In this document: positions 28,277 through 43,851 of the stretch, in pieces
How positions within the stretch are numbered: the stretch's first letter is position 1
Layout: each line of letters starts with the position of its first letter
Source: Chthonomonadales bacterium
GTDB lineage: Bacteria > Armatimonadota > Chthonomonadetes > Chthonomonadales > CAJBBX01
Assembly (NCBI GenBank): GCA_013360745.1
Contig: JABWBA010000023.1
Coordinates: 1 to 44,361 of the forward strand
Reading direction: 5' to 3'
Length of the DNA: 44,361 nt
Position numbers and translations under genes: made by a program
Notes under the pieces: generated by a model
Told to the model about the DNA's origin: nothing
What the model saw: only the letters and a program-made list of their open reading frames with translations
The model's database searches: none

Positions 28277-30160
28277 TTACGCGGCTTGCGGCGCGGGTTG
28301 ATCTTGCGCGGGTGCCGCGCCTTCCTGCTGCGCCTCCGGTGGCGCAACCTGAGCCGCTATCGGCTCAAGAAACTCTGTGATCGCCTCGTCGGGGATGCCC
28401 TTTTCACGCATCGCCTCGCCGACCGCCATGAGCGCGTCGCCGATGTTCGGGGCTTCCGGCGCAAGGAACGACTCGGGATCGGGAACGTCGTTCTGCTCAA
28501 GCAGGTAGAGGACTAGCTTGCGCTGGTCGATCTGCGGGTTCTGGACGAGCTGATTGAAAACCGTGAGCGCGTCGTTGATCTTCTGGACGCGGTTCTCCGG
28601 TTCGGTTGAGCCCGCGTCCGGCGCAATATCAACGTCCTGCGCCAAGTCCTCCGGGCTCACGTCCTCAAAGCGGTAGCCACCGTCCTCGCTATCGAGGCGG
28701 ATCGGCTTCGCGTCGCTCATGTGCTGCCGGTTCAGTTCAAGGAACTGCTGCGCGGCGGGCCGGATTGTCTCGGCCAAGAGGTTCTGCGTCTTGTATGAAA
28801 TGCGGACGTTCGCGGCCTGCTGGACGAGCTGCGTTCCGGTCGCGGTTTCAGAGGCCGCGCCTGCGCCGGCAACGGAGTCGTCAATGCCCGTGGCGCGGTC
28901 GAAGTCGGCCTTGATTGCGTCCTCTTCCCGGTAGGACGACGCCGGCAAGTCCTCAACCGGGAGCTGGAAAAGAACCTCGTTCGGGTTCGTGATTGTCGGG
29001 ATCAGGGCACCGGGGCCGCGCTTCAGCGCCTCCGGGTCGACCATCCCCTCCATGTAGGCGGTAACTCGATCCACCACGAACGCGGCGTTGTCGCGCCGCT
29101 GCCCGCGCAGGGTGTTGATTTCGTGCTGAAGGTGCTTGATCGGCTCAATCTCGGAGATGCCGACGAACTCGCCCTCCTGAAGCGTGGGGCGGAAAATCTG
29201 GAAGGGCATTTCCCGGTGCCAGAATGGGGTTATGTCGCAGACCGCGACGAACTGGCGGTTGAGGATGATGTAGACGCGCTCGCGGTCGTGGAACTCAAGA
29301 ACCTCGTGGTCGCGGCCGGCGCGGGTGTCCTGTCCGCTGATCCCAAGCTGGTCGAGCCGGTCGCCCCAAATCGAACTTGTGTCGAACCCGCCCGTGCCGG
29401 ACTCGGCGATCATCTTCAAGTGGTCGGAGGTCGCATCGGGGGAGAGCGGGTTGCCATCGCCATCCGCGAACCAGTCGCCGTCCTGAATCCGGTCCTTGAC
29501 GTACTGAATGTCCCGCCACGTCCGGTGAATCAGCCAGCGGGAACTCTCAACGTCCTTAGCCGCCGGATCCCAAAAGAAGTCCGCAATCTCCACGTCCTCA
29601 ACCTGCGGACCCTCGAAGGTGACGACCTCAGCGAGTACGGCGCGGTCCCCCTTGAGCAGCTTGCGCGGCTCGCGCTTGACGACGCGGCGAATCTTCCGCT
29701 CCCAATAGGTCTTTTGGACTCCGAGCCCGTACTTGAACCCGCGTCGAGCGGTCGGCTGCAACTTGAGGTCGTAGCTGATGTTCCGCTGCTGCTGCTCAAG
29801 TAGTTCCTTGATGAGCTTGCACTTGACGGCCGCTTCCGGCGTGTTCGGGCGGACGGTCATCGTCGGGTTGTTGGAGAGGGCGCGGGGAACGATTGTCTCG
29901 ATGGCCCCGAAGATCAGCGGAATGAAGAGCTGCGACTTCCAGTAGGCGTCCGCATCGCGCTGCGCCACGTCGCGGTCCCGCGCCTGATTGACGTAGTTCT
30001 GGATCGCCGTGTGATTGCGGTGATACTGGTATGCCTCCTTCCAGCGGGAGACATACGCCTGATGCACCTTCTCGGCGGTCTGAACGGCCTTCGTGACCTT
30101 CTTGAGCGCGACCTTATGCTCGTCGCTGAGGTCGCGGGAATAGGACTCAGCCGTCAGCAC
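28277..30160 (-). CDS. portal protein
   Basis: A 627-residue protein with portal-type features: F-I-P-L-I-F-G-A-I-E-T-I-V-P-R-A near the N-terminus, a central W-D-P-A-A-K-D-V...W-L-I-H-R-T segment, long helical middle and acidic, Gln/Pro-rich C-terminus. Its length and style match podovirus portals of the P22/SU10 group. The GTG at 30160 is preceded by GAAGG and overlaps the previous gene by 14 bases. It forms the DNA entry ring used with the terminase encoded at 31399. Confidence 0.75.
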   Translation of the reverse strand: MLTAESYSRDLSDEHKVALKKVTKAVQTAEKVHQAYVSRWKEAYQYHRNHTAIQNYVNQARDRDVAQRDADAYWKSQLFIPLIFGAIETIVPRALSNNPTMTVRPNTPEAAVKCKLIKELLEQQQRNISYDLKLQPTARRGFKYGLGVQKTYWERKIRRVVKREPRKLLKGDRAVLAEVVTFEGPQVEDVEIADFFWDPAAKDVESSRWLIHRTWRDIQYVKDRIQDGDWFADGDGNPLSPDATSDHLKMIAESGTGGFDTSSIWGDRLDQLGISGQDTRAGRDHEVLEFHDRERVYIILNRQFVAVCDITPFWHREMPFQIFRPTLQEGEFVGISEIEPIKHLQHEINTLRGQRRDNAAFVVDRVTAYMEGMVDPEALKRGPGALIPTITNPNEVLFQLPVEDLPASSYREEDAIKADFDRATGIDDSVAGAGAASETATGTQLVQQAANVRISYKTQNLLAETIRPAAQQFLELNRQHMSDAKPIRLDSEDGGYRFEDVSPEDLAQDVDIAPDAGSTEPENRVQKINDALTVFNQLVQNPQIDQRKLVLYLLEQNDVPDPESFLAPEAPNIGDALMAVGEAMREKGIPDEAITEFLEPIAAQVAPPEAQQEGAAPAQDQPAPQAA

Positions 30161-31398: not shown

Positions 31399-33231
31399 TT
31401 ACCAGTTCGTGACGGGATCGCGGACGAGTCGCGGCGCGGGCTTACTGAAGTCGCGCTTGACCGGAACCTGCTGCGCCACCTGTTGCGCGATGGCCCAAGC
31501 CATGAAGCGGTCGGAATACTTGCCGCGCTCGGGAGCGACCTTGCCGCTTTCCTCGCGGACGAGCGTGGACATTTCCATCGCCAACCCGAACGACTTGATC
31601 CCGTGCGTGTCCTCGCGGAGCAGTTCGGCGGCGTGGGCGAGCAGGAGCGGGCGGGTTCTCGCGTTCGTGTCCCATCCAAGCTGATTCTCCTGCCGGTCCA
31701 TCTTCTTGCCGACCGAATGGCGGAAATAGACGAACGGGTAGCGATAGCCGCGCCAGAGCTTGTTCGCGGCGGGGACGCCCCACGATCCCGTTGTCTCGAT
31801 GGCGCACCACGGCTTGTTGAAGAGCAGGCAGGCGAGATAGATTTGCTCGGCGAGTAGATCGGGGTCGACGCGGCTGTGGTACTCAGCGAGCTGTTCACGG
31901 GTCTTGTGGTCGATGACCTCAATCGCGTGGAACGCCGGCTGCGCCCCCTCGACCTCCGGGTGCCCGCCGCTTACGTCGACGCCGATGACGGCCTGCTCGG
32001 TGTAGGGGACGTTCGGGTCGTGCCAGAACTTCCAGTCGCTTGCTTCGCCTAGCTTCAGTTCCGACGCGGGCACAAACTTCGCGGCACCGGGGACGACGAT
32101 CTGATCGCCGGTCGGTGTAGCACGATTGCTCTCTTTTGTGGAGAAGAGCTTGCCCACGGCGGGGCCGGGGTTGTCGGGGGAGGGGTCACGCGGGTCGGAG
32201 ATTCGGGCGCGGACAAGGACGCCGCGCATGAGACTCGCATCGAACACCTGCCGCGCTGAGGCGACGAACGCCTCGGCCGGCGTCGACGGGTACTCCTGCT
32301 GGAACTGTTCGATCTTGCCCGACGACTCGTTGGCGATTGTCTTGCGCCGCCAGTTCAACTGCTCAAGGGTGAGCGGAACATGCTCGCCGGTCATCGAGTC
32401 GATGGGGCCGGGATCGAAAAGCTGCTCTTCGCCCTCCGCAAACCGGGACTGCGACGTGTCCCCCACGCGAAACCGCGCCTTCTCGTCCTCGTTGTCGAAC
32501 GGCCGCGAATACTGCTCCTCCTTCCACCACGGCCAGAAGAAGGGGATGTAGTCGTTGAGCCCCTCTTCCGCGTCATCCCACAAGCCCTTGAAGTCGTTGT
32601 GGCCGTTCGCGGTCGATTCGATGATGAACATGGACTCGGGATGGTCGGGGACCGCGTTCTTGAGCGCGGTCAGCTTCGTAACAAGATCATCCCAGAAGGC
32701 AGCCTCCGATGCGTGGACTGCCTGATAGGTGCCGCCTCGTCCGGCTTGGAACTCGCCGGCCGTGTCAACGAGATAGACCGAATCGGGGAACCCGCCGCCC
32801 TGCGCGATGGCCCGCTTGCCGCCGTTGAGAAAGTGAAGCTCCCTGCCCCTGCGGGTGCCTGCGAGGTCGGGCTTGTACGCGGGCTCATCGGGGAGCAGGT
32901 CGTACATGCGCTTGCCGATCCGGTAGAGCTTCGCCCCGGTGTCGCGGTCGTGAGCGACGACGACCACGTTGTAGTTGGGCCGCGTCGTCGCCCGCTGGAT
33001 CAGCTTGCTTTGGACCGCCGTGGAGAATCCGATCTGCCGCGCCTTGAGGATGATCGCCCTCATAGCGTGGCCTGCTATGCGCTGCTCTTCCAGCGCCTTG
33101 TCGAGCGCAAGCTGCGCGGGGGAGTAGGTGAACGGGACAATCTCGCCTCGCTTGTTGGCGATCTTGAGTAGGTGCCGCGAGTAGAAGGGGGTATCGGTGC
33201 GTAGCCGTTCGGCTACTTCCTCAGCGTTCAC
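31399..33231 (-). CDS. terL: terminase large subunit
   Basis: A 610-residue DNA-packaging motor. The ATPase domain shows K-A-R-Q-I-G-F-S-T (63-71, a terminase-type Walker A variant) and V-H-A-S-E-A-A-F-W (Walker B/catalytic Glu region), then a helical link. The nuclease domain begins with V-I-G-V-D-V-S-G-G, the first metal-binding aspartate motif, and ends near D-R-F-M-A-W-A-I-A. GTG at 33231 overlaps the stop of the small gene before it. It would cut and pump DNA into heads through the portal. Confidence 0.85.
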   Translation of the reverse strand: MNAEEVAERLRTDTPFYSRHLLKIANKRGEIVPFTYSPAQLALDKALEEQRIAGHAMRAIILKARQIGFSTAVQSKLIQRATTRPNYNVVVVAHDRDTGAKLYRIGKRMYDLLPDEPAYKPDLAGTRRGRELHFLNGGKRAIAQGGGFPDSVYLVDTAGEFQAGRGGTYQAVHASEAAFWDDLVTKLTALKNAVPDHPESMFIIESTANGHNDFKGLWDDAEEGLNDYIPFFWPWWKEEQYSRPFDNEDEKARFRVGDTSQSRFAEGEEQLFDPGPIDSMTGEHVPLTLEQLNWRRKTIANESSGKIEQFQQEYPSTPAEAFVASARQVFDASLMRGVLVRARISDPRDPSPDNPGPAVGKLFSTKESNRATPTGDQIVVPGAAKFVPASELKLGEASDWKFWHDPNVPYTEQAVIGVDVSGGHPEVEGAQPAFHAIEVIDHKTREQLAEYHSRVDPDLLAEQIYLACLLFNKPWCAIETTGSWGVPAANKLWRGYRYPFVYFRHSVGKKMDRQENQLGWDTNARTRPLLLAHAAELLREDTHGIKSFGLAMEMSTLVREESGKVAPERGKYSDRFMAWAIAQQVAQQVPVKRDFSKPAPRLVRDPVTNW

Positions 33232-33391: not shown

Positions 33392-33537
33392 CCGTCCAAG
33401 AGCCTTTCGTAACGCTTGATGCGGGCCTCGCTGTCTCTAACGAAAACGGGCGAAAGCTTTAGAGTCCTCGCCCGCTTCAGGAACCTGCGCTCGCGCTCAA
33501 GCTGCTTTCGGATCGTCTTGTCGCTGGCCCTATCCAT
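33388..33537 (-). CDS. small basic helical protein (49 aa)
   Basis: ATG 33537 begins MDRASDKTIRKQLERERRFL; the sequence is basic and helical (R-I-K-R-Y-E-R-L-L-D-G). The in-frame extension to 33648 is antisense/overlap with the methyltransferase. Start and stop overlap neighbours. Unknown function. Confidence 0.5.
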   Translation of the reverse strand: MDRASDKTIRKQLERERRFLKRARTLKLSPVFVRDSEARIKRYERLLDG

Positions 33538-34144
33538 TGAGCAGTTCCCCCGCCGTGTTGAGGCATTGGTCGCCCCAGGTGTCCCATCCAAGTCGGTTGA
33601 CGCGGGCGAATAGCTCGACGTAGGGGCCGGGGCTGATCTGCTCGACAAGCTCGGTGAACGCTTCGGGCTTCGCTGAGTGAATCTTGGCGGGAGCGCGGCC
33701 CGTCCATTCGTAAGGCTGCTTCCAGAAGTGAACCCCGACCGGATGATAGCTCGGGAAGGTCGCCTTGCCCCTTCGGGCGACTAGGACGGGTTCGTGATCG
33801 TTGCGGAACGCTCCGGTCCCGAGCCCCGGTGAACGCAACCCCCAAATGATCTCCCCGCAGGGCTCAAACCCCCACGCCCTAGCAACCCGCGCCGCGTCAC
33901 CCTCCCGAAAGACCTTCCGCGTGGCCCACATAAAGAGGGCAGCGTCGTCGTCCGCAATCCGCTCGACGGGCAGCTCGTAAATGTCGGAGAGCCCCATCGT
34001 GGAGTAAGCCATCTCGCGTCCCGGCGTACCCCGCTCGGGGCCGGACCACCAAGCGCCGCCCTTCGCCTTAGCCGATCTCGGGGTCCAGTCGAGGGGCCAG
34101 GGAGGGTCGGCGACGATCGTGCGGTATCGGCCCGCGTCACCCAT
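33530..34144 (-). CDS. MT-A70-family DNA adenine methyltransferase
   Basis: A 204-residue protein with the D-P-P-W catalytic motif at residues 13-16 and the MT-A70 style S-A-M-binding end (H-S-A-K-P-E-A-F-T-E-L-V-E...Y-V-E-L-F-A-R). It is expected to make N6-methyladenine in DNA. No matching restriction endonuclease is seen nearby, so it probably protects phage DNA from host enzymes or marks it for regulation. It lies between two ribbon-helix-helix regulators and terminase. Confidence 0.85.
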   Translation of the reverse strand: MGDAGRYRTIVADPPWPLDWTPRSAKAKGGAWWSGPERGTPGREMAYSTMGLSDIYELPVERIADDDAALFMWATRKVFREGDAARVARAWGFEPCGEIIWGLRSPGLGTGAFRNDHEPVLVARRGKATFPSYHPVGVHFWKQPYEWTGRAPAKIHSAKPEAFTELVEQISPGPYVELFARVNRLGWDTWGDQCLNTAGELLNG

Positions 34145-34469
34145 TGAGCAGTTCCCTTGCTCGCTCTCGGGCGCGGGCTCGCCGTTCGTCGTCGTTCAAG
34201 TCGGCGTTCGTGAGGCCGTCTAGGTGGTCGCGGACTAGGGCTGCAACCAGCTCATCGCTGGACCGGCCGAGCCGCGCCGCCTTGTCCAGCACGGCGGTAG
34301 CAAGGGCGGGGGAGAGGGTGAGGTTCAGTTCTCCCCGTGGGGGAGCCTCAATGTCCTTGCGAACCGCGTCCCGAATCAAATCCGAAATGCTGACGCCCCG
34401 GTTCTTGGCGACTCGCTCGTAGAGCTGCCGTTCCAGCGGGTCGACCCGGAACTGGATCGTGCTAGCCAC
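34137..34469 (-). CDS. ribbon-helix-helix DNA-binding protein
   Basis: GTG at 34469 begins V-A-S-T-I-Q-F-R-V-D-P-L-E-R-Q-L-Y-E-R-V-A-K, a classic ribbon strand plus two helices (S-I-S-D-L-I-R-D-A-V). A second similar segment follows (E-L-N-L-T-L-S-P-A-L-A-T-A-V-L-D-K-A-A-R-L-G-R-S-S-D-E-L-V), so the protein may hold two RHH units. The stop overlaps the methyltransferase region. Likely a transcription regulator or DNA organiser. Confidence 0.7.
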   Translation of the reverse strand: MASTIQFRVDPLERQLYERVAKNRGVSISDLIRDAVRKDIEAPPRGELNLTLSPALATAVLDKAARLGRSSDELVAALVRDHLDGLTNADLNDDERRARARERARELLNG

Positions 34470-34638
34470 GCCTGAGACTCCCGTGCGTCCTGATCCGTGT
34501 CTCGCCGCTAGGCAGCTCGATCCTGACCATGTCCCGCCTGAATCCGATGATTCTGACCCGGTGGACCCGCTCCCCCTCGTTCGCATACGCCTCGTCGCCC
34601 ACGTTCCAGACGTTCGGGCTCAACTGCTTCAATGCCAT
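34462..34638 (-). CDS. small hypothetical protein (58 aa)
   Basis: Read from the reverse complement: MALKQLSPNVWNVGDEAYA and ending T-H-G-S-L-R-R-G. It looks like a small SH3-like beta barrel. GGAGCAGAAGGA precedes the ATG. Overlaps neighbours by 8-10 bases. Function unknown. Confidence 0.6.
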   Translation of the reverse strand: MALKQLSPNVWNVGDEAYANEGERVHRVRIIGFRRDMVRIELPSGETRIRTHGSLRRG

Positions 34639-34817
34639 TCCTTCTGCTCCTTCTCTAGCTCTCTGACGCGGGTGTCAAGATCGGCGAGCTTGAGCAACAC
34701 GTCGCTGACGCTGGAATCGAACTCCCTGAGCAGCCGAACCTCCGCGAGCATCGTCCCGACCTGCGGCCGGCACCTGCCGGTGTGCGCCTCCCCGCCACAA
34801 TCAGGACACGTTTCCAC
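34629..34817 (-). CDS. zinc-knuckle plus coiled-coil protein (62 aa)
   Basis: GTG at 34817 gives E-T-C-P-D-C-G-G-E-A-H-T-G-R-C (a C-x2-C...H/C knuckle) followed by a coiled coil (L-L-R-E-F-D-S-S-V...R-V-R-E-L-E-K-E-Q). It starts inside the end of the RHH gene. Unknown function, perhaps a regulatory partner. Confidence 0.5.
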   Translation of the reverse strand: METCPDCGGEAHTGRCRPQVGTMLAEVRLLREFDSSVSDVLLKLADLDTRVRELEKEQKEWH

Positions 34818-35106
34818 GGCGTAGCTCCTGATCCGCAATCCGTTGCGCCGCCGCGCTGGGAAGTCCCTGCCCCTCAAGTTGTCTGACGCGGGCTCGCCAA
34901 CTCGTCGCAGGTAAAGACGCGGGAGCAGCCCGACCCTGCTCTTCCGCTGGCGGCGGCGCGGGGATCGAACCTACACCCCTGTCGGGACCGCCCTTGAGAG
35001 CCGCTTCCCGAACATAGGCGCTGACGCCCATCGACCCGGCCCGTTGCTCTAGCTCGGCCTTCTCCTCCGGGCTGACCCGGAACCGGATGCTTTCGGTGCG
35101 ACTCAC
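34801..35106 (-). CDS. RHH protein related to MobC-type mobilisation/partition regulators
   Basis: GTG at 35106 begins S-R-T-E-S-I-R-F-R-V-S-P-E-E-K-A-E-L-E-Q-R-A, the ribbon-helix-helix pattern of MobC-like and Arc-like proteins (then G-V-S-A-Y-V-R-E-A-A-L). A proline-rich linker and a C-terminal helix follow. Four copies of a TGTNGCNACA box lie immediately upstream and overlap its promoter, strongly suggesting autorepression. It is the first gene of the leftward packaging-side operon. Confidence 0.7.
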   Translation of the reverse strand: MSRTESIRFRVSPEEKAELEQRAGSMGVSAYVREAALKGGPDRGVGSIPAPPPAEEQGRAAPASLPATSWRARVRQLEGQGLPSAAAQRIADQELRRGNVS

Positions 35107-35107
35107 T

Positions 35108-35162
35108 TGTGGCAACAATAATGTAGCCACAGGACGGATTGTTGCAACAGAATGTGGCCACA
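35108..35162. promoter_or_regulatory. four-box operator array TGTNGCNACA and embedded promoter
   Basis: Boxes at 35108-35117 (TGTGGCAACA), 35122-35131 (TGTAGCCACA), 35140-35149 (TGTTGCAACA) and 35153-35162 (TGTGGCCACA); the last two are perfect palindromes. On the minus strand TTGCAA, a 16-base spacer and TACATT form a promoter inside the array, about 13 bases before the GTG. RHH dimers commonly bind such short repeated boxes in pairs. Confidence 0.7.
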
Positions 35163-35664
35163 ATATAGACGTGCTTGGATGGGGGGGAGTCTCAGGAAGC
35201 TGGGGGCGGCGGAGTCCCGCGAAGGGGTGCGGGGGTGCGCGCGGGCCGGCGAGTTGCGATGCGATTCGGATTCACTCGCAAGCTGTCATATGCATACATA
35301 CATCGCATGAATAGTGATGATGCGAGGGTAAGAGGATCGGGCAATAGAACGGACAGGGAACATGGGCAGCTCGCCTCGTGTACGCGCGTGTACGTGTAGG
35401 CGGGAGGATGGTTGCGCGTGCAACTAAGCTGGCGAATGTGTACGTGCTGACCAGCTCGCCTCTTCCCTTACCTAGCTACCTAGCTAGATGGGTCGGGCGC
35501 GCGGGCTCACGTGTGGGCGGATGGGACGCAGGATCATGCGAGCTGGCGATAGGTGGGCCGTGCTGCGCTCTAGGTGGAGATGCGGCGCGGGTCGATATGC
35601 GGAATGGGCGATGGCATGGATAGTGGGATTGCGGCGCGGTTTCTAAATGTTTGAAGATTGGGGG
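35163..35664. other. gene-poor divergence region with short repeats (possible origin/control region)
   Basis: No convincing gene in about 500 bases; the frames present lack family resemblance and ribosome-binding sites. Repeats seen: GTGTACG three times (two near 35380, one near 35438), CAGCTCGCCTC twice (35368 and 35453), CTAGCTAC/CTAGCTAG in tandem near 35472, ATGCGA several times, and an inverted TCGCAT/ATGCGA around 35310-35335 beside an A/T-richer patch. It separates leftward and rightward transcription. A replication origin or a switch region is possible; neither is shown. Confidence 0.4.
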
Positions 35665-35692
35665 TTGACAAGTAGCCGCTAGGCAGTAGGTT
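35665..35692 (+). promoter_or_regulatory. plus-strand promoter of the accessory early region
   Basis: TTGACA (35665-35670), 16-base spacer, TAGGTT (35687-35692). It is the best sigma-70-like match seen in the window. Transcription would start near 35700, giving a leader of about 105 bases before the first gene at 35809. Confidence 0.6.
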
Positions 35693-35729
35693 GATTTCCA
35701 TCCCGTTAGCTACACGAAGTAGGACCGCA

Positions 35730-35776
35730 GGGCCGGCCATAGCGCGACGCTGCGGGATCGAATCTCGCGCCGGCTC
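35730..35776 (+). ncRNA. tRNA-like three-way-junction fold in the leader
   Basis: GGGCCGGC pairs with GCCGGCTC (eight pairs, one G-U) like an acceptor stem. Inside are a small AGCG-CGA-CGCT hairpin and GCGGG-ATCGAAT-CTCGC, whose loop carries the TCGA core of a T-arm. D and anticodon arms are absent. It may be a structured leader, a tRNA remnant, or a tRNA mimic. Confidence 0.35.
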
Positions 35777-35808
35777 TTCCCGTTAGTACCCGACGAAAGG
35801 AAAGGAAA

Positions 35809-35973
35809 ATGGGACAAGGCAAAGGCAAAGGATGGCGGCGAGATAAGAAGATGCAGCGTTATACCTGCATCCGTTGCGGCCGTAAGGCCACGACGCGGGT
35901 CATTACGCCGATCATGGGAACGCCGGAAGTCCCGGTCAATGCCGGACTCTGCAAGCGGGGATGCAAGCGATGA
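35809..35973 (+). CDS. zinc-ribbon mini-protein (54 aa)
   Basis: First gene of the rightward early region. MGQGKGKGWRRDKKMQRY is followed by T-C-I-R-C-G-R-K and a second pair L-C-K-R-G-C-K-R at the C-terminus, a four-cysteine ribbon. GAAAGGAAAGG precedes the ATG, the same leader found before later genes. Its TGA overlaps the next ATG. Possibly a small DNA- or RNA-binding factor. Confidence 0.65.
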   Translation: MGQGKGKGWRRDKKMQRYTCIRCGRKATTRVITPIMGTPEVPVNAGLCKRGCKR

Positions 35974-36539
35974 CCGCCACGCTCACACGGCAGGAAACCC
36001 GCGCTCGCAAGAATCGGGCGCGGGCTCATGCGCGATGGGTTCCGAAAGGCTCAAGCGCCACCGACTACAGTCCCGAAGAGATCCGGAAGCGGAAGCAGGC
36101 TCACCGGGACTATCTGCGGCGCGTACTGGCCGAGCTAGAAAGCCCGGAGGGTATGCGACGGTTTCTGATCGCACGCGAGCTGCACCCGCACCTAACGCCA
36201 CTTGCCGTGGCAGCCGTGGCAGCCGATGGCGTCCCCGGAGTCGTCTATCGCTACGCGGATGGGAAAGAGGGTTGGCGGCATCATGGACGCCAGATAGCCC
36301 GCGACGAATCCGCTTTCGTATTCGGCACGCGGGCACCTAGCTTCAATCCTCGCGCATTGTTCGGCGAGGGTCAGCTAGTCGGTGGCGAGCATTACGACCG
36401 GGACGACGTTCTAGCGGCCGTGGGAGAGCCGTGCGCGGACGTTGTAGATGCGGCGCGGGCTCACCTAGCGGAGATTCTGCGGCGCGGTCTATCGCCCGCC
36501 AAGACTGCTAACGCGCTTTGCGTGGAAAGTGGCATCTAA
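35970..36539 (+). CDS. ArdC-like protein, copy 1 (189 aa)
   Basis: ATG 35970 overlaps the upstream stop (ATGA). The first ~70 residues are basic and helical (R-K-N-R-A-R-A-H-A-R-W, S-P-E-E-I-R-K-R-K-Q-A-H-R). Then comes G-M-R-R-F-L-I-A-R-E-L-H-P-H-L-T-P-L-A-V-A-A-V-A, V-Y-R-Y-A-D-G-K-E-G-W-R-H-H-G-R-Q-I-A-R-D-E and F-G-T-R-A-P. This resembles the 'W...G..V.kge.a..i.aP' core of ArdC-type ssDNA-binding antirestriction domains. It is a clear paralogue of the gene at 37297. Protection of incoming DNA is a reasonable guess, not shown. Confidence 0.6.
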   Translation: MTATLTRQETRARKNRARAHARWVPKGSSATDYSPEEIRKRKQAHRDYLRRVLAELESPEGMRRFLIARELHPHLTPLAVAAVAADGVPGVVYRYADGKEGWRHHGRQIARDESAFVFGTRAPSFNPRALFGEGQLVGGEHYDRDDVLAAVGEPCADVVDAARAHLAEILRRGLSPAKTANALCVESGI

Positions 36540-36562
36540 GCACTAGGCGGAAAGCCTACGGC
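36537..36562 (+). repeat. intergenic repeat R1, copy 1 (with insertion)
   Basis: TAAGCACTA...AGCCTACGGC with a seven-base insertion. The TAA is the stop codon of ArdC-like copy 1. Related copies occur at 37890, 38542 and 39153. Confidence 0.6.
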
Positions 36563-36589
36563 AAATCACGAAAGGAAAGGGAAGAGCAA

Positions 36590-36709
36590 ATGACAAAAAG
36601 CAAGCGCAAGATCCCGAGCAAGAAAAAGTGTCCCCGATGCGGGCACCCGTACCGGGCAGCATCTCGGCCCTGCGTTCACCCGTGGCATAGGACCGCGCCC
36701 GACCACTAA
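36590..36709 (+). CDS. zinc-finger mini-protein (39 aa)
   Basis: M-T-K-S-K-R-K-I-P-S-K-K-K-C-P-R-C-G-H-P then C-V-H-P-W-H: a C-x2-C...C/H knuckle with a basic N-terminus. AAAGGAAAGG precedes the ATG in the repeated leader context. No family recognised. Confidence 0.6.
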   Translation: MTKSKRKIPSKKKCPRCGHPYRAASRPCVHPWHRTAPDH

Positions 36710-36804
36710 GCGCAAAGCATCCCGCCGCTGCTCCGGTAATGCCGGCGCGGGCTCACGACTCGGCAGCGGCATCCCGTAGTCAACCGAAAGAAAGGAACGG
36801 GAAA

Positions 36805-36945
36805 ATGAATGACAAGCCATCCGACGAGAAGCCGGACACGGCAGATTGGGAACGCTGCCCGCACTGCGGGGAACCGCTTGACCCCGATGAGGCAAGCGAT
36901 CAGTGCGAGCACTGCGGCGAAGAGATCGGTCGTGAGCCCCGATGA
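36805..36945 (+). CDS. double-zinc-knuckle mini-protein (46 aa)
   Basis: Acidic: W-E-R-C-P-H-C-G-E-P-L-D-P and Q-C-E-H-C-G-E-E-I-G, two C-x2-C knuckles 17 residues apart as in rubredoxin-like or zinc-ribbon proteins. The leader CCCGTAGTC...GAAAGAAAGGAACGGG is repeated before the gene at 37989. The TGA overlaps the ATG of the next gene. Confidence 0.65.
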   Translation: MNDKPSDEKPDTADWERCPHCGEPLDPDEASDQCEHCGEEIGREPR

Positions 36946-37196
36946 GCCCGCGCACCCTAACCGACTCGCATAAGCGAGCGATGCAAGAGGGCCGGCGTCG
37001 TGCAATCGCCGAACGTCCGCAGCGCCGTAAGCAGCGGTTGCAGGAAGTGGACGCGCGGCTTACTGAGCTAGGCGCATTGTCCGATGCGTTGCGAGCGCAG
37101 GGCGACCAGACACCGCTGACGATGCGAGACGAGATGCGAGAGCTGGCTCACGAGTGGACGGCTATCCGCGCTGAGATTCTGCGGGAGGCTGAGTGA
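36942..37196 (+). CDS. SPRTL-DSHK basic protein, copy 1 (84 aa)
   Basis: M-S-P-R-T-L-T-D-S-H-K-R-A-M-Q-E-G-R-R-R-A followed by a coiled-coil-like segment (R-L-Q-E-V-D-A-R-L-T-E-L-G-A-L). The first 20 residues recall NUMOD3-type DNA-binding motifs ('S-x-x-H-K-x-x-x-x-x-G'). It has a full paralogue at 38204, each followed by the same 33-residue membrane peptide. Function unknown; DNA binding is suggested by the basic motif. Confidence 0.65.
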   Translation: MSPRTLTDSHKRAMQEGRRRAIAERPQRRKQRLQEVDARLTELGALSDALRAQGDQTPLTMRDEMRELAHEWTAIRAEILREAE

Positions 37197-37297
37197 TGGC
37201 GCGGTTCATTAGGCAGGAAGCATCCCGCCCGCGTGGTTTGGCTTGGGTCGTGGCGTTGTACGCGCTCGCCCCGTGGATAGTGGAAAGGATCAGCTAA
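37196..37297 (+). CDS. 33-residue membrane peptide, copy 1
   Basis: M-A-R-F-I-R-Q-E-A-S-R-P-R-G then a hydrophobic span (L-A-W-V-V-A-L-Y-A-L-A-P-W-I-V) and E-R-I-S. TGATG overlap with the gene before and TAATG overlap with the ArdC-like gene after. An equally long copy at 38443 differs at few positions, which shows it is under protein-level constraint. Confidence 0.65.
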   Translation: MARFIRQEASRPRGLAWVVALYALAPWIVERIS

Positions 37298-37899
37298 TGC
37301 CGCATCTACCGTCCCCCGACTATGAATCGCTCGCTGCGATGCCCGTGGGCGAGGATGAGCGGAAGGCTAACCGCATCCGCCGTGCCCAGCTCCGGGCGAT
37401 GCTGCGCGGCGAGTCCTATTCGGCCGATGAGAAACGCGCCATTAGGCGAGCGCATAGCGACGCTAACGCGGAAGCGTTGCGCCGGCTTGAAACCGTCGAC
37501 GGGATGGCGCGGTTTCTCGAAACGCGGGAGCTGAATCCGCAGCTAACGCCGCTGGCAGCGGCGCGCGTTGCGATGGATGCTCCCGGGCGGGTAGTGGCGA
37601 CGTTCCGCGAATGGAAGCAAGCGGGATGCCGCGTTCGCAAGGACGAACACGCAATCAGCTACGGGACGAAAGCGCCGGCTTATTGGCCGCTCCCGCTCTT
37701 CGCTGCCGAGCAGACTGACTACCCGGAAGAGCTGGAAGAGCGGCAGATTGCCGAAACCGGCTCGCCTAGCGATGAACTAGTCGACGCTGCCCTCGCATCC
37801 CTGCGGGAGCGGTTCGCGGCTATGGGCCGTAAGACGAAAGCCCTAAACGCATGGGCCGCTGAGTCTGGATTGGGCGGGAGGCTCGTAACTAAGCACTAA
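37297..37899 (+). CDS. ArdC-like protein, copy 2 (200 aa)
   Basis: ATG 37297 overlaps the membrane peptide stop (TAATG). After a helical N-terminal part it has G-M-A-R-F-L-E-T-R-E-L-N-P-Q-L-T-P-L-A-A, V-A-T-F-R-E-W-K-Q-A-G-C-R-V-R-K-D-E-H-A-I-S-Y and Y-W-P-L-P-L-F-A-A-E-Q-T-D. The 'F-x-x-W-k-x-x-G-x-x-V-r-K-x-E-x-a-I' and 'lFaxeQtD' pieces are close to ArdC-type N-terminal domains. It lacks a visible metalloprotease H-E-x-x-H, so only the ssDNA-binding half is present. Paralogue of 35970-36539. Confidence 0.65.
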   Translation: MPHLPSPDYESLAAMPVGEDERKANRIRRAQLRAMLRGESYSADEKRAIRRAHSDANAEALRRLETVDGMARFLETRELNPQLTPLAAARVAMDAPGRVVATFREWKQAGCRVRKDEHAISYGTKAPAYWPLPLFAAEQTDYPEELEERQIAETGSPSDELVDAALASLRERFAAMGRKTKALNAWAAESGLGGRLVTKH

Positions 37900-37908
37900 G
37901 CCTACGGC
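37890..37908 (+). repeat. intergenic repeat R1, copy 2
   Basis: TAAGCACTAAGCCTACGGC, overlapping the stop of ArdC-like copy 2 and running directly into GCGCGGGCTCAC. Identical in 19 bases to the copy at 38542. Confidence 0.75.
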
Positions 37909-37988
37909 GCGGGCTCACGGTGAGCTTTGCCCGGATTCGACTTCCGGCCCGCGCATCCCGTAATCAACGAAAGAAAGGAACGGGAACA

Positions 37989-38207
37989 ATGCAAGCGTAC
38001 TGCGAAACCGGGGATCATTACCCGGAGGAAGTCATCGCGGATTCGGGTGCCGAGCTAGGCGTCATCGTCTACGGCAACGGCGAAGTGTCAAACCGATGGG
38101 AGGATGGCATTGTCGGCGTCCCCGCTGCGGCCTCCGACCGCGCCTACGCCGATGACGAGCCGGTCTGCCCGGACCATCATTGCTGCGTGTCGTGGAGGCG
38201 AGCGTGA
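37989..38207 (+). CDS. small protein with cysteine/histidine cluster (72 aa)
   Basis: M-Q-A-Y-C-E-T-G-D-H-Y-P-E-E at the start and V-C-P-D-H-H-C-C-V-S-W at the end, a likely zinc site closed by the two termini. Preceded by the repeated CCCGTAATC...AAAGAAAGGAACGGG leader. Its TGA overlaps the GTG of the next gene. Occupies the place of the zinc-knuckle gene in the first cassette. Confidence 0.6.
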   Translation: MQAYCETGDHYPEEVIADSGAELGVIVYGNGEVSNRWEDGIVGVPAAASDRAYADDEPVCPDHHCCVSWRRA

Positions 38208-38443
38208 GCCCGCGCACCCTAAGCGACTCGCATAAGCGGAAGATGGCAGCCGGACGGCGACGTGCGGCAGCCGAGCGTAAGCGGACGCGGCCAGATCGGA
38301 TCGCGGAGATTGAGACGCGAGTCGATCAGCTCGGTGCGGAGATTGACAGTCTCCGCAATGCCGGGCAGCCGATTCCGTGGGCGCTGCGCGACGAGCTACG
38401 GCAAGCGGGCATCGAGCGGCTGGAACTGCGGTGGTCGGAATGA
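38204..38443 (+). CDS. SPRTL-DSHK basic protein, copy 2 (79 aa)
   Basis: GTG 38204 gives S-P-R-T-L-S-D-S-H-K-R-K-M-A-A-G-R-R-R-A-A-A-E-R-K, near-identical to copy 1 over the first 25 residues, then a diverged coiled-coil tail (I-A-E-I-E-T-R-V-D-Q-L-G). The longer reading from 38180 lies inside the preceding gene. It is followed by the second membrane peptide. Confidence 0.65.
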   Translation: MSPRTLSDSHKRKMAAGRRRAAAERKRTRPDRIAEIETRVDQLGAEIDSLRNAGQPIPWALRDELRQAGIERLELRWSE

Positions 38444-38544
38444 TGGGCCGGTGGATTCAGCGGGAAGCATCCCGACCGCGCGGGCTCATCTGGATCGTGG
38501 CGCTGTACGCGCTGGCCCCGTGGATTGTAGAAAGGATCGCCTAA
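38443..38544 (+). CDS. 33-residue membrane peptide, copy 2
   Basis: M-G-R-W-I-Q-R-E-A-S-R-P-R-G-L-I-W-I-V-A then L-Y-A-L-A-P-W-I-V-E-R-I-A. The second of two adjacent ATGs is chosen because it overlaps the stop (TGATG) and gives exactly the length of copy 1. The pair with the SPRTL protein is duplicated as a unit. Confidence 0.65.
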   Translation: MGRWIQREASRPRGLIWIVALYALAPWIVERIA

Positions 38545-38560
38545 GCACTAAGCCTACGGC
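38542..38560 (+). repeat. intergenic repeat R1, copy 3
   Basis: TAAGCACTAAGCCTACGGC at the stop of the second membrane peptide; identical to the copy at 37890. Confidence 0.75.
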
Positions 38561-38570
38561 AAATAGGGAA

Positions 38571-38602
38571 GAGCCCGCGCACGGGGGACCGGACGCGGGC
38601 TC
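38571..38602 (+). terminator. hairpin built from two opposed CGCGGGCTC motifs
   Basis: GAGCCCGCG (38571-38579) and CGCGGGCTC (38594-38602) form a nine-base stem with a 14-base loop, followed by AAACCCTTCCCGTT. It could terminate the upstream cassette. The two arms are copies of the window-wide motif in opposite orientation. Confidence 0.5.
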
Positions 38603-38671
38603 AAACCCTTCCCGTTAGTCAGCTCCGAAAGGAAGGAGCGGACAACGGGGACGAGCATATCAAAGGAAGCT

Positions 38672-38941
38672 ATGAGACTTGAAGGTGGATATTCGTCGGC
38701 GCGGGCTGATGCGAATGAGCGCAAGCGGTCGGCGCTGGCCGGCGTCCAAGTCTGCGAGGCTGCGGCTAAGGAAGCGGAAGCGCGGTCGATGGACGCGAGA
38801 CTGAGACTGCGAGAGGCTATCGCAGCGGCCCGCGACCAGGGAATCCCCGTCCGTGAGATAGCGAAGGCTGCGGGCATGAGCAGACAGGCTCTTTACAAGA
38901 GGATGGAACGACTCAGAGAGTCAGAGAGGAAGGGACAATGA
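38672..38941 (+). CDS. helical protein with C-terminal HTH (89 aa)
   Basis: Long charged helices (A-A-A-K-E-A-E-A-R-S-M-D-A-R-L-R-L-R-E) then I-P-V-R-E-I-A-K-A-A-G-M-S-R-Q-A-L-Y-K-R-M, a resolvase-type helix-turn-helix. AAAGGAAGC precedes the ATG. A small regulator or nucleoid-type protein. Its TGA overlaps the next ATG. Confidence 0.65.
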   Translation: MRLEGGYSSARADANERKRSALAGVQVCEAAAKEAEARSMDARLRLREAIAAARDQGIPVREIAKAAGMSRQALYKRMERLRESERKGQ

Positions 38942-39162
38942 ACGGCTACACCGAAGAGCAAGCGGAGCGGCTAAAGCATCGGATCGACGGCGAGCTTGCG
39001 AAGATCGAGGACGCTGCAGCGAAGCTCCGAAAGATCGTCCCCGATACCGACCCTGACCGCTACGCAAACGGCGGGATCAACTACCTGCTAGAGCAGTTCC
39101 GCGAGGTCGGGTACGGACTCGCCGCAACCGTAGACCGGAGAACCGATGACCCTAAGCACTAA
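38938..39162 (+). CDS. small helical hypothetical protein (74 aa)
   Basis: M-N-G-Y-T-E-E-Q-A-E-R-L-K-H-R-I-D-G-E, ending D-P-K-H. The last two codons and stop are part of repeat R1. No family recognised. Coupled to genes on both sides. Confidence 0.6.
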   Translation: MNGYTEEQAERLKHRIDGELAKIEDAAAKLRKIVPDTDPDRYANGGINYLLEQFREVGYGLAATVDRRTDDPKH

Positions 39163-39364
39163 GCCTTCGGCCGAGCTATGGGGGTCAGCGGAAGCGGCGC
39201 GGGCTCTTGGAGTCAGTCGGGATACCCTACTCCGCTGGTCGAAAACGGATCGGTTTCCCGAACCGATTGCCCGTTTGACGATGGGCCGCGTGTATCTGGC
39301 TGCGGAGATTCGGGACTGGCATCGCCAGGAGATTCGTCGTCGGCGTCAGGCGCGGGCTTTCTGA
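39146..39364 (+). CDS. AlpA/excisionase-like HTH protein (72 aa)
   Basis: L-W-G-S-A-E-A-A-R-A-L-G-V-S-R-D-T-L-L-R-W-S-K-T-D-R-F-P-E-P is the winged MerR/AlpA-type helix-turn-helix of phage excisionases and small regulators. Together with the HTH protein at 43823 the phage has two such proteins; either could be the recombination directionality factor. Its 3' third overlaps the convergent gene at 39213-39851. Confidence 0.7.
   Translation: MTLSTKPSAELWGSAEAARALGVSRDTLLRWSKTDRFPEPIARLTMGRVYLAAEIRDWHRQEIRRRRQARAF
39153..39171 (+). repeat. intergenic repeat R1, copy 4
   Basis: TAAGCACTAAGCCTTCGGC, one base different from the other copies, here lying inside the overlap of two genes. Confidence 0.65.
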
Positions 39365-39851: not shown

Positions 39852-39871
39852 CAGCGATACCCTTTGGGCTC

Positions 39872-39945
<74 letters not shown>

Positions 39946-39999
39946 TCGAAGCCCATAGCGGCGTTCTAAGCCTCTGAAATGGATAGGGGTAGGTAGGCA

Positions 40000-41295
40000 C
40001 TAGGAAAAGACTATCTCGTCCGTCTGACGGGCTCCTGCGGCCTTCTCAGCCTTACTCATGGCAGCGTCGTTGAAGCGGAAGGTGCCGGGACGCCGGCCCA
40101 CGTCGACCTTCCCGCCCTGCTTACCGCCGCGACACTTCAGCAGTCGGATCGTGCCTGAGTCGTATTGCTGGCCGTTCTCGTTATCCCAATGCAGAGCCAG
40201 GATGCGGTCGCTCAGGTGTTCGACAAGTCCCGTTTCCCGAATGTCTCGGAGGCTCGGGGGCGGGTCGACGTTGCCGTCCCGTCGTTGCTGATTGAGCTGG
40301 AATACCCCGATGGTGAGCGCGCCGGCTATCTTCGCGGCGCTTGCGAGGGTCCGAATCTCGTCCTCAAAATCTTCGCGGCGGCGATGGGGGATGTTGTTCA
40401 CGGTATCGACGGCAATCACGTCATACTCGTTGAGGATCGCGTGCTGTCTGATCCGCATGGCCGACCATCCTTCCGCGTCGATGGGATCGAAAGGGAGGGG
40501 ATTCTGTTCGATCCATTCGGCGGCGCGGTTTGCCTCGTAGCCATCGAGCCCGTTCTTGAGCAATAGCTTGGCGGCGGGGATGCCGGTATGGGCGGCGACG
40601 TAGCGGCTCACGCGCTCACGCCGGTCCATTTCGGTCATGTAGAGCCCGACCTTGTAGCCCTGCTCCGAGAATCCGGTGAGCATCTGGTCGAGCATGATGC
40701 TCTTGCCGTGGCCCGACCATCCGATGATGCTTACGAAGTGGTGGCGCAGGAACCCGCCGGGGCTGTATTCCTCAAGCGCCTTCCACGGGATGCTGAACCG
40801 CTCGAGGGGAAGCTCGGAGCGAAGATGGTCGGCGAAGTCCTTACTTGCGGATACCCGATCATGGCTCTTCATTTCAAGGCGGACGCTGGATTGGACGCGG
40901 GCCAATGCGCGGGCTAGTTCCTCGTCGTCGCCGGCCTGCGATGCGTTGATGATTTGATGCGCCGCCTCCCATTGGTTGCGACGCTCGGCGATCTGGATGA
41001 TGCGTTCGACTCGGGGCTCGGGGTCGAAGCTGCTGGATTTGAGAGCGAGCCGGTTGATTTCGTCCTGCGAGATACCGTGCTGTTCGACGGCTGCCCCGAC
41101 CGTCATCGAGTCGATGGGCCTCTTCTGCAAGCCCACTTCCATCATCGCCCGGAGGATGCGGCGATGCTTCGGCAGGTAGAAATGCTCGGGCCGCAAGCCG
41201 AGCTTGACGGCGAGCCAGAGGTAGTTCTGAGGACCGCTTAGTGCGGTCCCCAGGACCTCTTCCTCTTCGGCTAGTGCGGTCGGTGCCTCGTTCAC
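40000..41295 (-). CDS. DnaB-type replicative helicase
   Basis: A 431-residue protein beginning with a DnaB N-terminal-like helical domain (E-E-E-V-L-G-T-A-L-S, E-H-F-Y-L-P-K-H-R-R-I). The RecA core has Walker A G-W-S-G-H-G-K-S (192-199) and Walker B Y-D-V-I-A-V-D-T-V-N (291-300), and later V-F-Q-L-N-Q and L-V-E-H-L-S-D-R-I-L. GTG at 41295 overlaps the upstream stop; an extension to 41553 lies in the previous gene. With the winged-helix protein upstream it forms the replication module. Confidence 0.85.
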   Translation of the reverse strand: MNEAPTALAEEEEVLGTALSGPQNYLWLAVKLGLRPEHFYLPKHRRILRAMMEVGLQKRPIDSMTVGAAVEQHGISQDEINRLALKSSSFDPEPRVERIIQIAERRNQWEAAHQIINASQAGDDEELARALARVQSSVRLEMKSHDRVSASKDFADHLRSELPLERFSIPWKALEEYSPGGFLRHHFVSIIGWSGHGKSIMLDQMLTGFSEQGYKVGLYMTEMDRRERVSRYVAAHTGIPAAKLLLKNGLDGYEANRAAEWIEQNPLPFDPIDAEGWSAMRIRQHAILNEYDVIAVDTVNNIPHRRREDFEDEIRTLASAAKIAGALTIGVFQLNQQRRDGNVDPPPSLRDIRETGLVEHLSDRILALHWDNENGQQYDSGTIRLLKCRGGKQGGKVDVGRRPGTFRFNDAAMSKAEKAAGARQTDEIVFS

Positions 41296-41681
41296 GCGGC
41301 TACCTCGATGCCGTCGATCCACTTGCGGACGGTTCGCTTGGGAACCTGATGGACCCGCGCCAGATAGTTCCGCCCGTGCTTGCCGGCCGCATACTCGGCG
41401 ACGACGCGCTCGCATAGGTCGCGGGCTGAAGGCGGGGTCTTGGGCGCCGCCCATCGCCAACACTCGTCCGGCAGCTCGCAAAGGAAGAACCCGCGCGGGG
41501 TGAGCCAGCGGTCCAGGGTGTAGAAGTCGACCAGTCGGTTCGGTCGATCCCAACTCAGCACCACGTCTGCGAAGGGGTCAGACCTCATCGCCTCGGACGT
41601 GATCTGAGGGAACCGCTCGCATAGCCATCGCTTCACGGTCGGGCCATCTGCGGAACGGGCATTGGTCCAATCGGGCTTCAT
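41292..41681 (-). CDS. HTH-containing hypothetical protein (129 aa)
   Basis: The last 30 residues (Y-L-A-R-V-H-Q-V-P-K-R-T-V-R-K-W-I-D-G) resemble a helix-turn-helix. The rest (W-D-R-P-N-R-L-V-D-F-Y-T-L-D-R-W-L) has no recognised family. Sits between the initiator-like and helicase genes with four-base overlaps, so a helicase-loading or replication role is possible. Confidence 0.6.
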   Translation of the reverse strand: MKPDWTNARSADGPTVKRWLCERFPQITSEAMRSDPFADVVLSWDRPNRLVDFYTLDRWLTPRGFFLCELPDECWRWAAPKTPPSARDLCERVVAEYAAGKHGRNYLARVHQVPKRTVRKWIDGIEVAA

Positions 41682-42490
41682 TCGGTGCTCTCCTTTTCCC
41701 AGGGCGTAGCGCCGGGGTCCGGCCCTTCGCCGTTTGCGTATCTGTTGCGGGCCTCAACCCATTCTTCGATGCGGCGCTCCCGCTCTTCGCCGCTCATCCC
41801 GCCCGTGCTTTCCTCCCGCGCGAGCCAGTAGTCGATCTGCTCCCGCTGCGAGCGCCCGGACGGGTAGTTGGCGCCGCGAGTCTTGGGGGCGAGGATCAGG
41901 GACAGGCTGTTGTGCTTGCCGCCCTTCCGACTCGCGTACTCGCCGCGTTTCTGATGCCAGTCGGAGCCGGCGCAGGCGTCGATGCACCGCTTCAACTCGC
42001 CGACCGACCCGTGCTGAAGGGCGTTGCGGATTGTCTTGCGCTGCCCCTCGTCTGCCTTCTTCTGGCGCTTGTTGGGGAAGGCTGAGAGGTAGTGCTGAAA
42101 GACCTCTTCAACCTCTCCCCCGCAGCTATTAGAAGGTTCGTTAGAACCTTCTGTTTCAACTAACGGTTCATGGGTAGGCTGATTTCGGGAGGGGGGGTAG
42201 GCTGAAACCGGGGGGGAGGGGGGCAAAATGAGCCGGTAGCGATTCGACGCCTGCGACCCGTCCTCGCGGCTCCGTTTCTCGGTCAGCATCAGCCCCGCCT
42301 CTTCCAGCTTTCGGAAGTGCCGGCGCAGGGTCGCCTCGTCCTTGAGCCCGGTCTTGATTAGCAAGTGCCGCTTCCCCGGCCAGCACTCGCCGTCATCGTG
42401 CGCGTGGTCGGCGAGGGCGAGCAGGACTAGCTTCGTCGTCCCGCCGACGCTCTGCTCATCGAACGCTCGGGCAATCATCTTGACGCTCAT
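41678..42490 (-). CDS. winged-helix replication initiator-like protein
   Basis: A 270-residue protein. The first 90 residues form a winged helix (K-L-V-L-L-A-L-A-D-H-A-H-D-D-G-E-C-W-P-G-K...E-A-T-L-R-R-H-F-R-K-L-E-E-A-G-L), the common N-terminal domain of phage replisome organisers. A linker and a C-terminal region (F-Q-H-Y-L-S-A-F-P-N-K-R, C-I-D-A-C-A-G-S-D-W-H) follow as in DnaT/DnaD-like proteins. GGAGGTCAAGAG precedes the ATG. It should recognise the origin and bring in the helicase. Confidence 0.75.
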   Translation of the reverse strand: MSVKMIARAFDEQSVGGTTKLVLLALADHAHDDGECWPGKRHLLIKTGLKDEATLRRHFRKLEEAGLMLTEKRSREDGSQASNRYRLILPPSPPVSAYPPSRNQPTHEPLVETEGSNEPSNSCGGEVEEVFQHYLSAFPNKRQKKADEGQRKTIRNALQHGSVGELKRCIDACAGSDWHQKRGEYASRKGGKHNSLSLILAPKTRGANYPSGRSQREQIDYWLAREESTGGMSGEERERRIEEWVEARNRYANGEGPDPGATPWEKESTE

Positions 42491-42756: not shown

Positions 42757-43851
42757 TCATCCTTCCTTCCGTAGAACATTCAGGGAACGTCCGCGAGCGA
42801 TCAGCTCGTCAAGCGGAACAATCTCCTGCCCTCGCATCGACTGAATCAAGTGCTGGTAGGTGGTCACGCTCGTCTGAAGGGAGTGACCTAGCTGCTCGGC
42901 GACCTCAGTCGGGGGTCGGCCGGCTGCGATCATCAAAGAGGCGCAGGTGTGGCGCAGGTCGTAGGGCGTGAATGCCTCTGAGAGCCCGGCCGCGACCCGT
43001 AGACGGGCAAAGATGCGTCGGGAGTAGTTTCCCCAATCAGATTTATTTAGCGGCCCTCCATCGCTCCGCGCGAAGACGAGCCCGCGCGGTCGGCCTAGCC
43101 TGATCCGCAGCTCGGCCAACTCCTGAGCGATGGGACCGGGAACGTGGACGATCCGCTCCCGCTTATCCGCCTTGAGCCCTTGCTTGAGCTGGCCGTAGAC
43201 GTTGCGGCGATGGACCCGGAGGGTGCGCCCGTCAAGGTCGGCCCACATGAGCCCGTGGCTTTCCTGCGGTGGGCGCAGGCCGGTGTAGGCGAGGATGGAT
43301 ATGAGCGCCGCGTCGAGCCGCGTCGTGCAGGCTGCTCGCATCGCCTCAACCTGTTCGACCGTCGCCGGCTCTGCGGGCTCGGCCTTGTAGCGGGGAGCGG
43401 GGATCGCTGAAAGAGGGTTGGCTTGCAGATACTCATGGGCGACGGCGCGGGTCAATATCTGCGAGAGGATCATCCGGGCCTGCTGGACGACGCGGGGCGA
43501 CGTGCCCGCCTGCATGAGCCCGCGCTGCCAACCCTCAACGACACGCGGCCGAATGTCGATCAGCTTCATTCCCCCTAGCTCGGGGAAGATATGAAGCCGC
43601 AGGCGGTCGGAGTAAAGCTGCTCGCTCGATGGGGCGAGGTCGGTCTTGCTGGCGAGCCAGTCGACGGCCTCTTCCCGCAGCGTCGGCACGTCACGGCGAG
43701 ACAGGATCAGCTCGCCTAGTTCCTTGCGGCGGCGAGTCTCAGCGTCGAAGCGGTCGGCGTCGGCCTTGACGCTGAACGTCTTAGACCTGTTTCGGCCCGC
43801 GTCCCGGTAGCGGACGATCCACTTACCCGATGCTGCTCGATGAACCGACAC
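42757..43851 (-). CDS. int: tyrosine integrase
   Basis: A 364-residue site-specific recombinase with an N-terminal arm-type domain (W-I-V-R-Y-R-D-A-G-R-N-R-S-K-T-F), a SAM-like core-binding domain and a catalytic domain with R193 in A-Y-T-G-L-R, Y-D-L-R300-H-T, L-G-H323-S and nucleophile Y332 in V-T-T-Y-Q-H-L. It starts with GTG overlapping the excisionase-like gene by 29 bases. The adjoining tRNA-Arg fragment is the expected attachment site. The phage is therefore temperate. Confidence 0.9.
   Translation of the reverse strand: MSVHRAASGKWIVRYRDAGRNRSKTFSVKADADRFDAETRRRKELGELILSRRDVPTLREEAVDWLASKTDLAPSSEQLYSDRLRLHIFPELGGMKLIDIRPRVVEGWQRGLMQAGTSPRVVQQARMILSQILTRAVAHEYLQANPLSAIPAPRYKAEPAEPATVEQVEAMRAACTTRLDAALISILAYTGLRPPQESHGLMWADLDGRTLRVHRRNVYGQLKQGLKADKRERIVHVPGPIAQELAELRIRLGRPRGLVFARSDGGPLNKSDWGNYSRRIFARLRVAAGLSEAFTPYDLRHTCASLMIAAGRPPTEVAEQLGHSLQTSVTTYQHLIQSMRGQEIVPLDELIARGRSLNVLRKEG

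Follow-up and report, generated by a model that had tools for sequence, protein, structure and literature searches.

The 44,361-nucleotide contig JABWBA010000023.1 of a Chthonomonadales bacterium, analysed here over its whole length (the window; contig C110 of a 3.32 Mb assembly in 127 contigs), encodes a temperate tailed phage. Almost all of its genes are read leftward, and its sole rightward block, at 35.8–39.4 kb (35.77–39.36 kb with the first leader), is a modular operon in which a multi-gene stretch of ~1.25–1.34 kb has been duplicated in tandem. The operon consists of five modules, Z1-ArdC1, Z2, Z3-DSHK1-TM1-ArdC2, X-DSHK2-TM2 and HTH-g38938, made up of two ArdC-like genes (ArdC1 and ArdC2), two DSHK genes, two 33-residue membrane peptides (TM1 and TM2), four small genes for cysteine-containing (Cys) proteins (Z1, Z2, Z3 and X), a helix-turn-helix (HTH) gene and g38938 (Table 1). 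Each module opens with a ~30-nt leader (E5) that carries a Shine-Dalgarno sequence (SD), and most close with a ~20-nt trailer (E3). This modularity is a new observation that goes beyond an initial annotation of the same DNA. On balance, we favour the view that this is an accessory operon of the phage, in which one stretch was duplicated, both copies were kept and the products play an early accessory role.

The initial annotation had described three pairs of paralogous genes that were duplicated together, and all six of these reading frames are indeed present at the positions it gave. The resemblance within each pair is far beyond chance: the ArdC-like proteins share 38% amino acid identity over 172 residues (E=1e-27; z=37 against shuffles), the DSHK proteins 52% over 71 residues (E=2e-14; z=24) and the membrane peptides 27 of 34 positions (79%; E=1e-19; z=25), which makes the peptide the best conserved protein of the duplication. 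At the DNA level, five collinear blocks relate positions 36129-37291 to 37481-38538, and these include the intergenic leader region; the linkers between the genes are conserved as well. Several genes were thus duplicated in tandem as one stretch, and the three pairs are not unrelated to one another. The duplicated stretch would comprise, in order, an ArdC-like gene, a leader, a small Cys gene, DSHK and TM. The simplest route to such a duplication may have been unequal recombination between shared leaders or trailers.

The genes of the operon are closely packed. DSHK and the membrane peptide are adjacent in both copies and overlap by TGATG (at 37196 and 38443), as had been claimed, and such overlaps would allow the two proteins to be made together by translational coupling. 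Further overlaps join Z1 to ArdC1 (ATGA, 35970), Z3 to DSHK1 (ATGA, 36942), the first peptide to ArdC2 (TAATG, 37297) and X to DSHK2 (GTGA, 38204). The tight unit common to both copies is thus Cys gene-DSHK-peptide, with its ATGA or GTGA and its TGATG overlaps. The trio of ArdC-like gene, DSHK and peptide, which had been proposed as the unit, is not contiguous in the first copy; two genes, Z2 and Z3, and two linkers intervene between ArdC1 and DSHK1, while ArdC2 overlaps the first peptide directly. The suggestion that a zinc-knuckle gene precedes each DSHK-peptide pair holds in part: a Cys gene does stand before both, but X is unrelated to Z3 (z=-0.3), so that the two were rejected as duplicates, and X, scanned in a 95-residue form, matched none of the zinc families and has C/H pairs only (CPDHHCC). 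Since Z3 and X are non-homologous, the Cys gene may have been replaced in one of the copies.

Both copies appear to have been maintained as proteins. When scored by the phage's codon usage, the annotated frame was the best of the three forward frames for all six genes. The proportions of nonsynonymous and synonymous differences between the copies (pN/pS) were 0.49/0.69 for the ArdC-like genes, 0.37/0.53 for DSHK and 0.16/0.42 for the peptide; the synonymous excess was significant in each pair (p=1.7e-5, 0.015 and 0.013, respectively) and more so when the three were pooled (p=1.4e-7). Because divergence lies mainly at synonymous sites, this comparison of paralogues indicates that the two copies have diverged under purifying selection, in agreement with the earlier proposal that both were kept, and that both make working products, which have probably become specialised.

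The leaders and trailers are themselves repeats. All five copies of the 8-mer GAAAG[AG]AA that the window contains are on the + strand and within the operon, where they form part of the leaders (TCCCGT...CGAAAGRAAGGAACGGGA) before Z1, Z2, Z3, X and the HTH gene; the leaders read TCCCGT-N-CGAAAGRAAGG. Likewise, all four copies of CTAAGCAC in the window are on the + strand within the operon, at the stops of ArdC1, ArdC2, peptide 2 and g38938, and a weaker copy follows Z2. Between the two duplicated modules, the leaders agree at 34 of 37 columns as against ~47% of synonymous sites in the DSHK pair (p=9e-9); being more alike than those sites, they are constrained or homogenised. An inverted repeat encloses the SD in four of the five leaders. 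A complementary arm lies beyond the SD in 4/4 leaders with TCCCGT as opposed to 1/21 of the other + strand TCCCGT sites, a count in which the leaders of Z3 and X do not weigh as two independent cases. A leader hairpin is suggestive but not proven, since a fold clearly better than that of shuffles was seen for the HTH leader only; taken together with the hairpin upstream of it, that leader reaches z=-6.8. This upstream element, located after peptide 2 and before the HTH gene (38571-38603; z=-6.8 for the region), is a GC-rich hairpin, GAGCCCGCG...CGCGGGCTC, composed of two inverted copies of one motif and lacking a T run after it. Rfam gave no match at E<=1, and IMG/VR DNA scans for the trailer 18-mer and the leader pattern returned unrelated hits only. 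There is a small chance that the five leaders are targets of a single phage-encoded RNA-binding regulator that grips the SD-presenting hairpin, which would make this modular operon of duplicable cassettes a translational regulon; such a regulator would perhaps come from the operon itself, as one of its Cys/zinc or ArdC-like proteins.

Table 1. Coordinates of the operon's genes, leaders and trailers and of other phage genes in the window
Feature	Position	Strand	Remarks
Z1, 54-aa Cys-rich protein	35809..35973	+	Zn_ribbon_16 E=0.04, sub-threshold
ArdC-like copy 1 (ArdC1), 189 aa	35970..36539	+	
Z2, 39-aa Cys protein	36590..36709	+	
Z3, 46 aa, two CxxC pairs	36805..36945	+	zinc-ribbon-like, sub-threshold (scanned as 36739-36942)
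DSHK copy 1, 84 aa	36942..37196	+	predicted long helical hairpin, pLDDT 90
Membrane peptide copy 1 (TM1), 33 aa	37196..37297	+	
ArdC-like copy 2 (ArdC2), 200 aa	37297..37899	+	W-x3-G-x2-VRK-x-E motif
X, 72-aa C/H-containing protein	37989..38207	+	occupies the place of Z3
DSHK copy 2, 79 aa	38204..38443	+	GTG start
Membrane peptide copy 2 (TM2), 33 aa	38443..38544	+	
HTH protein	38672..38941	+	heads last module
g38938, 74-aa protein	38938..39162	+	family unassigned; E3 at stop (39151-39171)
HTH_17/excisionase-like protein	39146..39364	+	operon end
Leader E5 before Z1	35776..35802	+	SD GAAAGGAA; stem TCCCGTT/AATGGGA overlaps Z1 start codon
Leader E5 before Z2	36554..36589	+	divergent; lacks TCCCGT stem
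Leader E5 before Z3	36769..36804	+	stem TCCCGT/ACGGGA around SD
Leader E5 before X	37953..37988	+	34/37 columns same as copy at 36769
Leader E5 upstream of HTH gene	38608..38650	+	strong nested hairpin, z=-4.1
Trailer E3 at ArdC1 stop	36536..36562	+	CTAAGCACTA...GCCTACGGC
Trailer E3 at ArdC2 stop	37888..37908	+	
Trailer E3 at peptide 2 stop	38540..38560	+	
Amidase endolysin	7776-8555		leftward block
Major head protein (MCP)	20654-21814		
Portal	28277-30160		
TerL (large terminase)	31399-33231		
DnaB helicase	40000-41553		
O-like replication protein	41678-42490		
Tyrosine integrase	42757-43851		

The label "ArdC-like" is fair but weak. ArdC2 scored 21.7 bits against the ArdC-N profile PF08401, just below the Pfam cut-off of 22.6 (22 bits in another scan), and ArdC1 on its own had no match to that profile. 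Against a profile built from short ArdC-N proteins of the host phylum, ArdC2 reached 13.8 bits, above all of 5000 shuffles (<=7.5); its hhalign score of 31.6 likewise exceeded those of 100 column shuffles (<=20.6), with a probability of only 42%, which rose to 60% against a plasmid-type ArdC. The matching part is the hairpin VVATFREWKQAGCRVRKDEHAI. A full ArdC antirestriction protein was rejected, the cut-off not having been reached and neither protein (189 and 200 residues) having given a peptidase hit that would reveal the C-terminal metalloprotease domain. ArdC2 nonetheless carries what is, on these scores, a distant ArdC-N-like motif whose similarity is beyond chance, without being an ArdC.

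The ArdC-like proteins may keep part of the hairpin of ArdC-N that binds single-stranded DNA (ssDNA), and could bind the phage's DNA close to its replication genes or shield it from restriction. The initial annotation went further and suggested that the trio perhaps guards incoming DNA at the membrane. Spelled out as a three-part entry protection, this would have the ArdC-like protein coating the DNA as it enters, with DSHK and the peptide holding it at the membrane. The ArdC of R388, which binds ssDNA in preference and counters HsdRMS type I restriction independently of its protease activity (PMC7213743), speaks for such a system, as do the ArdC-N motif of ArdC2 and the overlapping genes for a basic DSHK and a hydrophobic peptide. 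Against it, tailed phages normally inject double-stranded DNA, with which the ssDNA preference of ArdC sits badly. ArdC-N is moreover reported to be uncommon in phage-type elements (PMC5512222), two genes intervene between ArdC1 and DSHK1, and neighbour conservation was not demonstrable, as no homologues were found in the databases searched. The match is too thin for the function of R388 ArdC to be carried over, and membrane guarding of incoming DNA is unproven, this analysis having yielded no positive evidence for it; we regard entry protection as quite unlikely.

The membrane peptide is basic at its N-terminus and contains a single hydrophobic stretch (Kyte-Doolittle maximum over 15 residues, 2.1–2.3), features that are consistent with a single membrane span, and any membrane action of the cassette would presumably be its work. 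DSHK is predicted, with good confidence, to form a helix of 49 residues and another of 25 (predicted local distance difference test score, pLDDT, 90), and fold searches with this model returned nothing informative. There is a real if modest chance that the coupled Cys gene-DSHK-peptide unit is a module for host inhibition or superinfection exclusion, with the peptide as effector, DSHK as its partner or antidote and the ArdC-like genes as passengers. The form of the peptide and its strong conservation (79%; pN/pS 0.16/0.42) would suit such an effector, and so would the overlap of its reading frame with that of DSHK, present in each copy; among small membrane proteins of phages, some that are made early are known to block the host, for example phiNM1 Gp11 (PMC11237401). 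No match to defence models or toxin families speaks for this role: the PADLOC defence profiles recognised nothing, apart from Z3 at chance level (E=0.057). The single hydrophobic stretch of the peptide might also recall a small holin or a regulator of lysis; this is very unlikely, for the amidase endolysin is remote, in the leftward block, and the peptides share their operon with HTH and Cys proteins. Finally, the helical N-terminus of DSHK is rich in basic residues, as might befit the NUMOD3-type DNA-binding motif of a homing element of which the repeats would be traces. The initial annotation had called the protein NUMOD3-like, an identity that we reject; neither NUMOD3 nor a homing endonuclease appeared among the hits (Pfam, E<=1), the model is a helical hairpin along its whole length and the DSHK pair is under purifying selection (p=0.015), so that a homing remnant is extremely unlikely.

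As far as these data show, none of the three protein families has known relatives. ArdC-like, DSHK and peptide homologues were not found in INPHARED phages, IMG/VR or 290 genomes of the host phylum, nor were ArdC2 homologues in the PLSDB plasmids or ArdC-like ones in GTDB genome contigs, and a PDB sequence search was uninformative. These searches used tblastn (ArdC2 in phages and plasmids; DSHK2 and the peptide in phages), profiles (30 genomes from the same order, 290 from the phylum) and pattern-based scans, the last of which detect mainly close relatives and may miss distant ones; the matches obtained were weak and looked like coiled-coil or hydrophobic similarity arising by chance. With no homologue found, a "fixed trio" of conserved neighbours cannot be shown. 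DnaB in IMG/VR and the major head protein in GTDB were likewise without relatives. A head-protein search of IMG/VR did lead to a nearest phage, IMGVR_UViG_3300047557_001912 (L010), with 78% DNA identity over 16.4–34.7 kb of the window, ending just before the operon; the DSHK family (A2) was absent from all nine records from this search.

The accessory operon with a retained duplication, which we prefer, would make early proteins that target DNA and the host membrane, and several points weigh against it. Expression early or in lysogeny is suggested by position only, beside the replication and integration genes. The ArdC-N match spans 25–37 residues of ArdC2 and none of ArdC1, and ArdC2 has D where the KGE motif has a conserved G; the AlphaFold model of the ArdC-like protein is poor (pLDDT 60, mostly <50 in the motif region), and a fold search with it found no match. 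Single leaders, except that of the HTH gene (z=-4.1), fold no better than shuffles. The synonymous divergence (dS) is unequal among the parts, falling from 1.9 in the ArdC-like genes to 0.9 in DSHK and 0.6 in the peptide, and may reflect one event followed by gene conversion or several events; the genes are short and we do not press the point. Lastly, constraint was judged from two copies only, because none of the three families has a found homologue.

The remainder of the contig places the operon in its context. Besides the genes of Table 1, the phage encodes a RuvC-like resolvase and exonucleases, and AT skew also shows the rightward orientation of the operon block. Nearby lies an MT-A70-type adenine methyltransferase (33530-34144; PF05063, E=5e-18), possibly for self-protection of phage DNA. 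Two ribbon-helix-helix/NikA-like genes (34137-35163) diverge from the operon, from which a gene-poor stretch of 650 bp (35164-35808) separates them, and they are candidates for its regulators. A tRNA-Asp(gtc) gene (39871-39947) lies within the phage ~3 kb from the integrase; its best host matches have <=81% identity over the tRNA, and 27 nt of its 3' end are found at 89% identity on host contig C101. The host having no near-identical copy, this gene is unsupported as an obvious integration site. The tetranucleotide profile of the contig correlates at 0.90 with sampled host contigs (L019-L024), which correlate at 0.97–0.99 among themselves; the phage may have been recently acquired or misbinned. 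The 10-mer GCGCGGGCTC has 21 copies within the 44 kb of the contig, where 0.86 would be expected, as against 22 in the remaining 3.28 Mb of the assembly. Its sites (e.g., 4485, 6028, 12265, 23707, 34171, 35499, 36018, 36745, 37907, 38206, 39197 and 43516) are on both strands, genic and intergenic, and its core, CCCGCGC, is likewise enriched in L010. Such a phage-wide distribution led us to reject these repeats as a cassette-specific signal.

The operon offers a clear case of a multi-gene accessory module of a phage that was duplicated and retained in both copies, and the repeats at module starts and ends that could have enabled the duplication remain visible. In the mosaic genomes of lambdoid phages, intergenic repeats known as boundary or linker sequences serve as recombination points. 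The leaders and trailers resemble these in being short, conserved and placed between gene modules that can be exchanged, but they are repeated within one genome, where they link tandem paralogues, and recombination between them is inferred. With ArdC and its ArdC-N domain (PF08401; R388 ArdC, PMC7213743), ArdC2 shares the W-x3-G-x2-V-R/K-K-x-E hairpin motif; it differs in the few matching residues (25–37, below the Pfam cut-off), in lacking a metalloprotease, in having a paralogue, ArdC1, with no match of its own, and in belonging to a phage operon instead of a conjugative element. The peptide, as a short membrane protein of an early or accessory region, is comparable in description to phiNM1 Gp11 (PMC11237401). 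The closest parallel in layout is with the cluster K mycobacteriophages, in which a short start-associated sequence (SAS, with its extended form ESAS) is repeated before start codons and accompanied by inverted repeats in about half of the cases (PMC3203893). In both systems the repeat directly precedes several starts, mostly in one orientation (here five sites, all on the + strand), and part of the sites have an inverted repeat (here four of five leaders). The consensus is nevertheless GGGATAGGAGCCC there and TCCCGT...CGAAAGRAAGG here, the arms of the inverted repeat stand on either side of the SD in this operon whereas the 17-bp repeats there lie upstream of the SAS, and the present operon has only five leader copies and adds a repeated trailer at gene ends. 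Because sequence and details differ, the leaders are analogues of SAS/ESAS in layout and not members. If they do serve jointly as an element of translational control, the concept of start-associated sequences would extend to an unrelated phage, and this operon would provide a compact system in which to test it.

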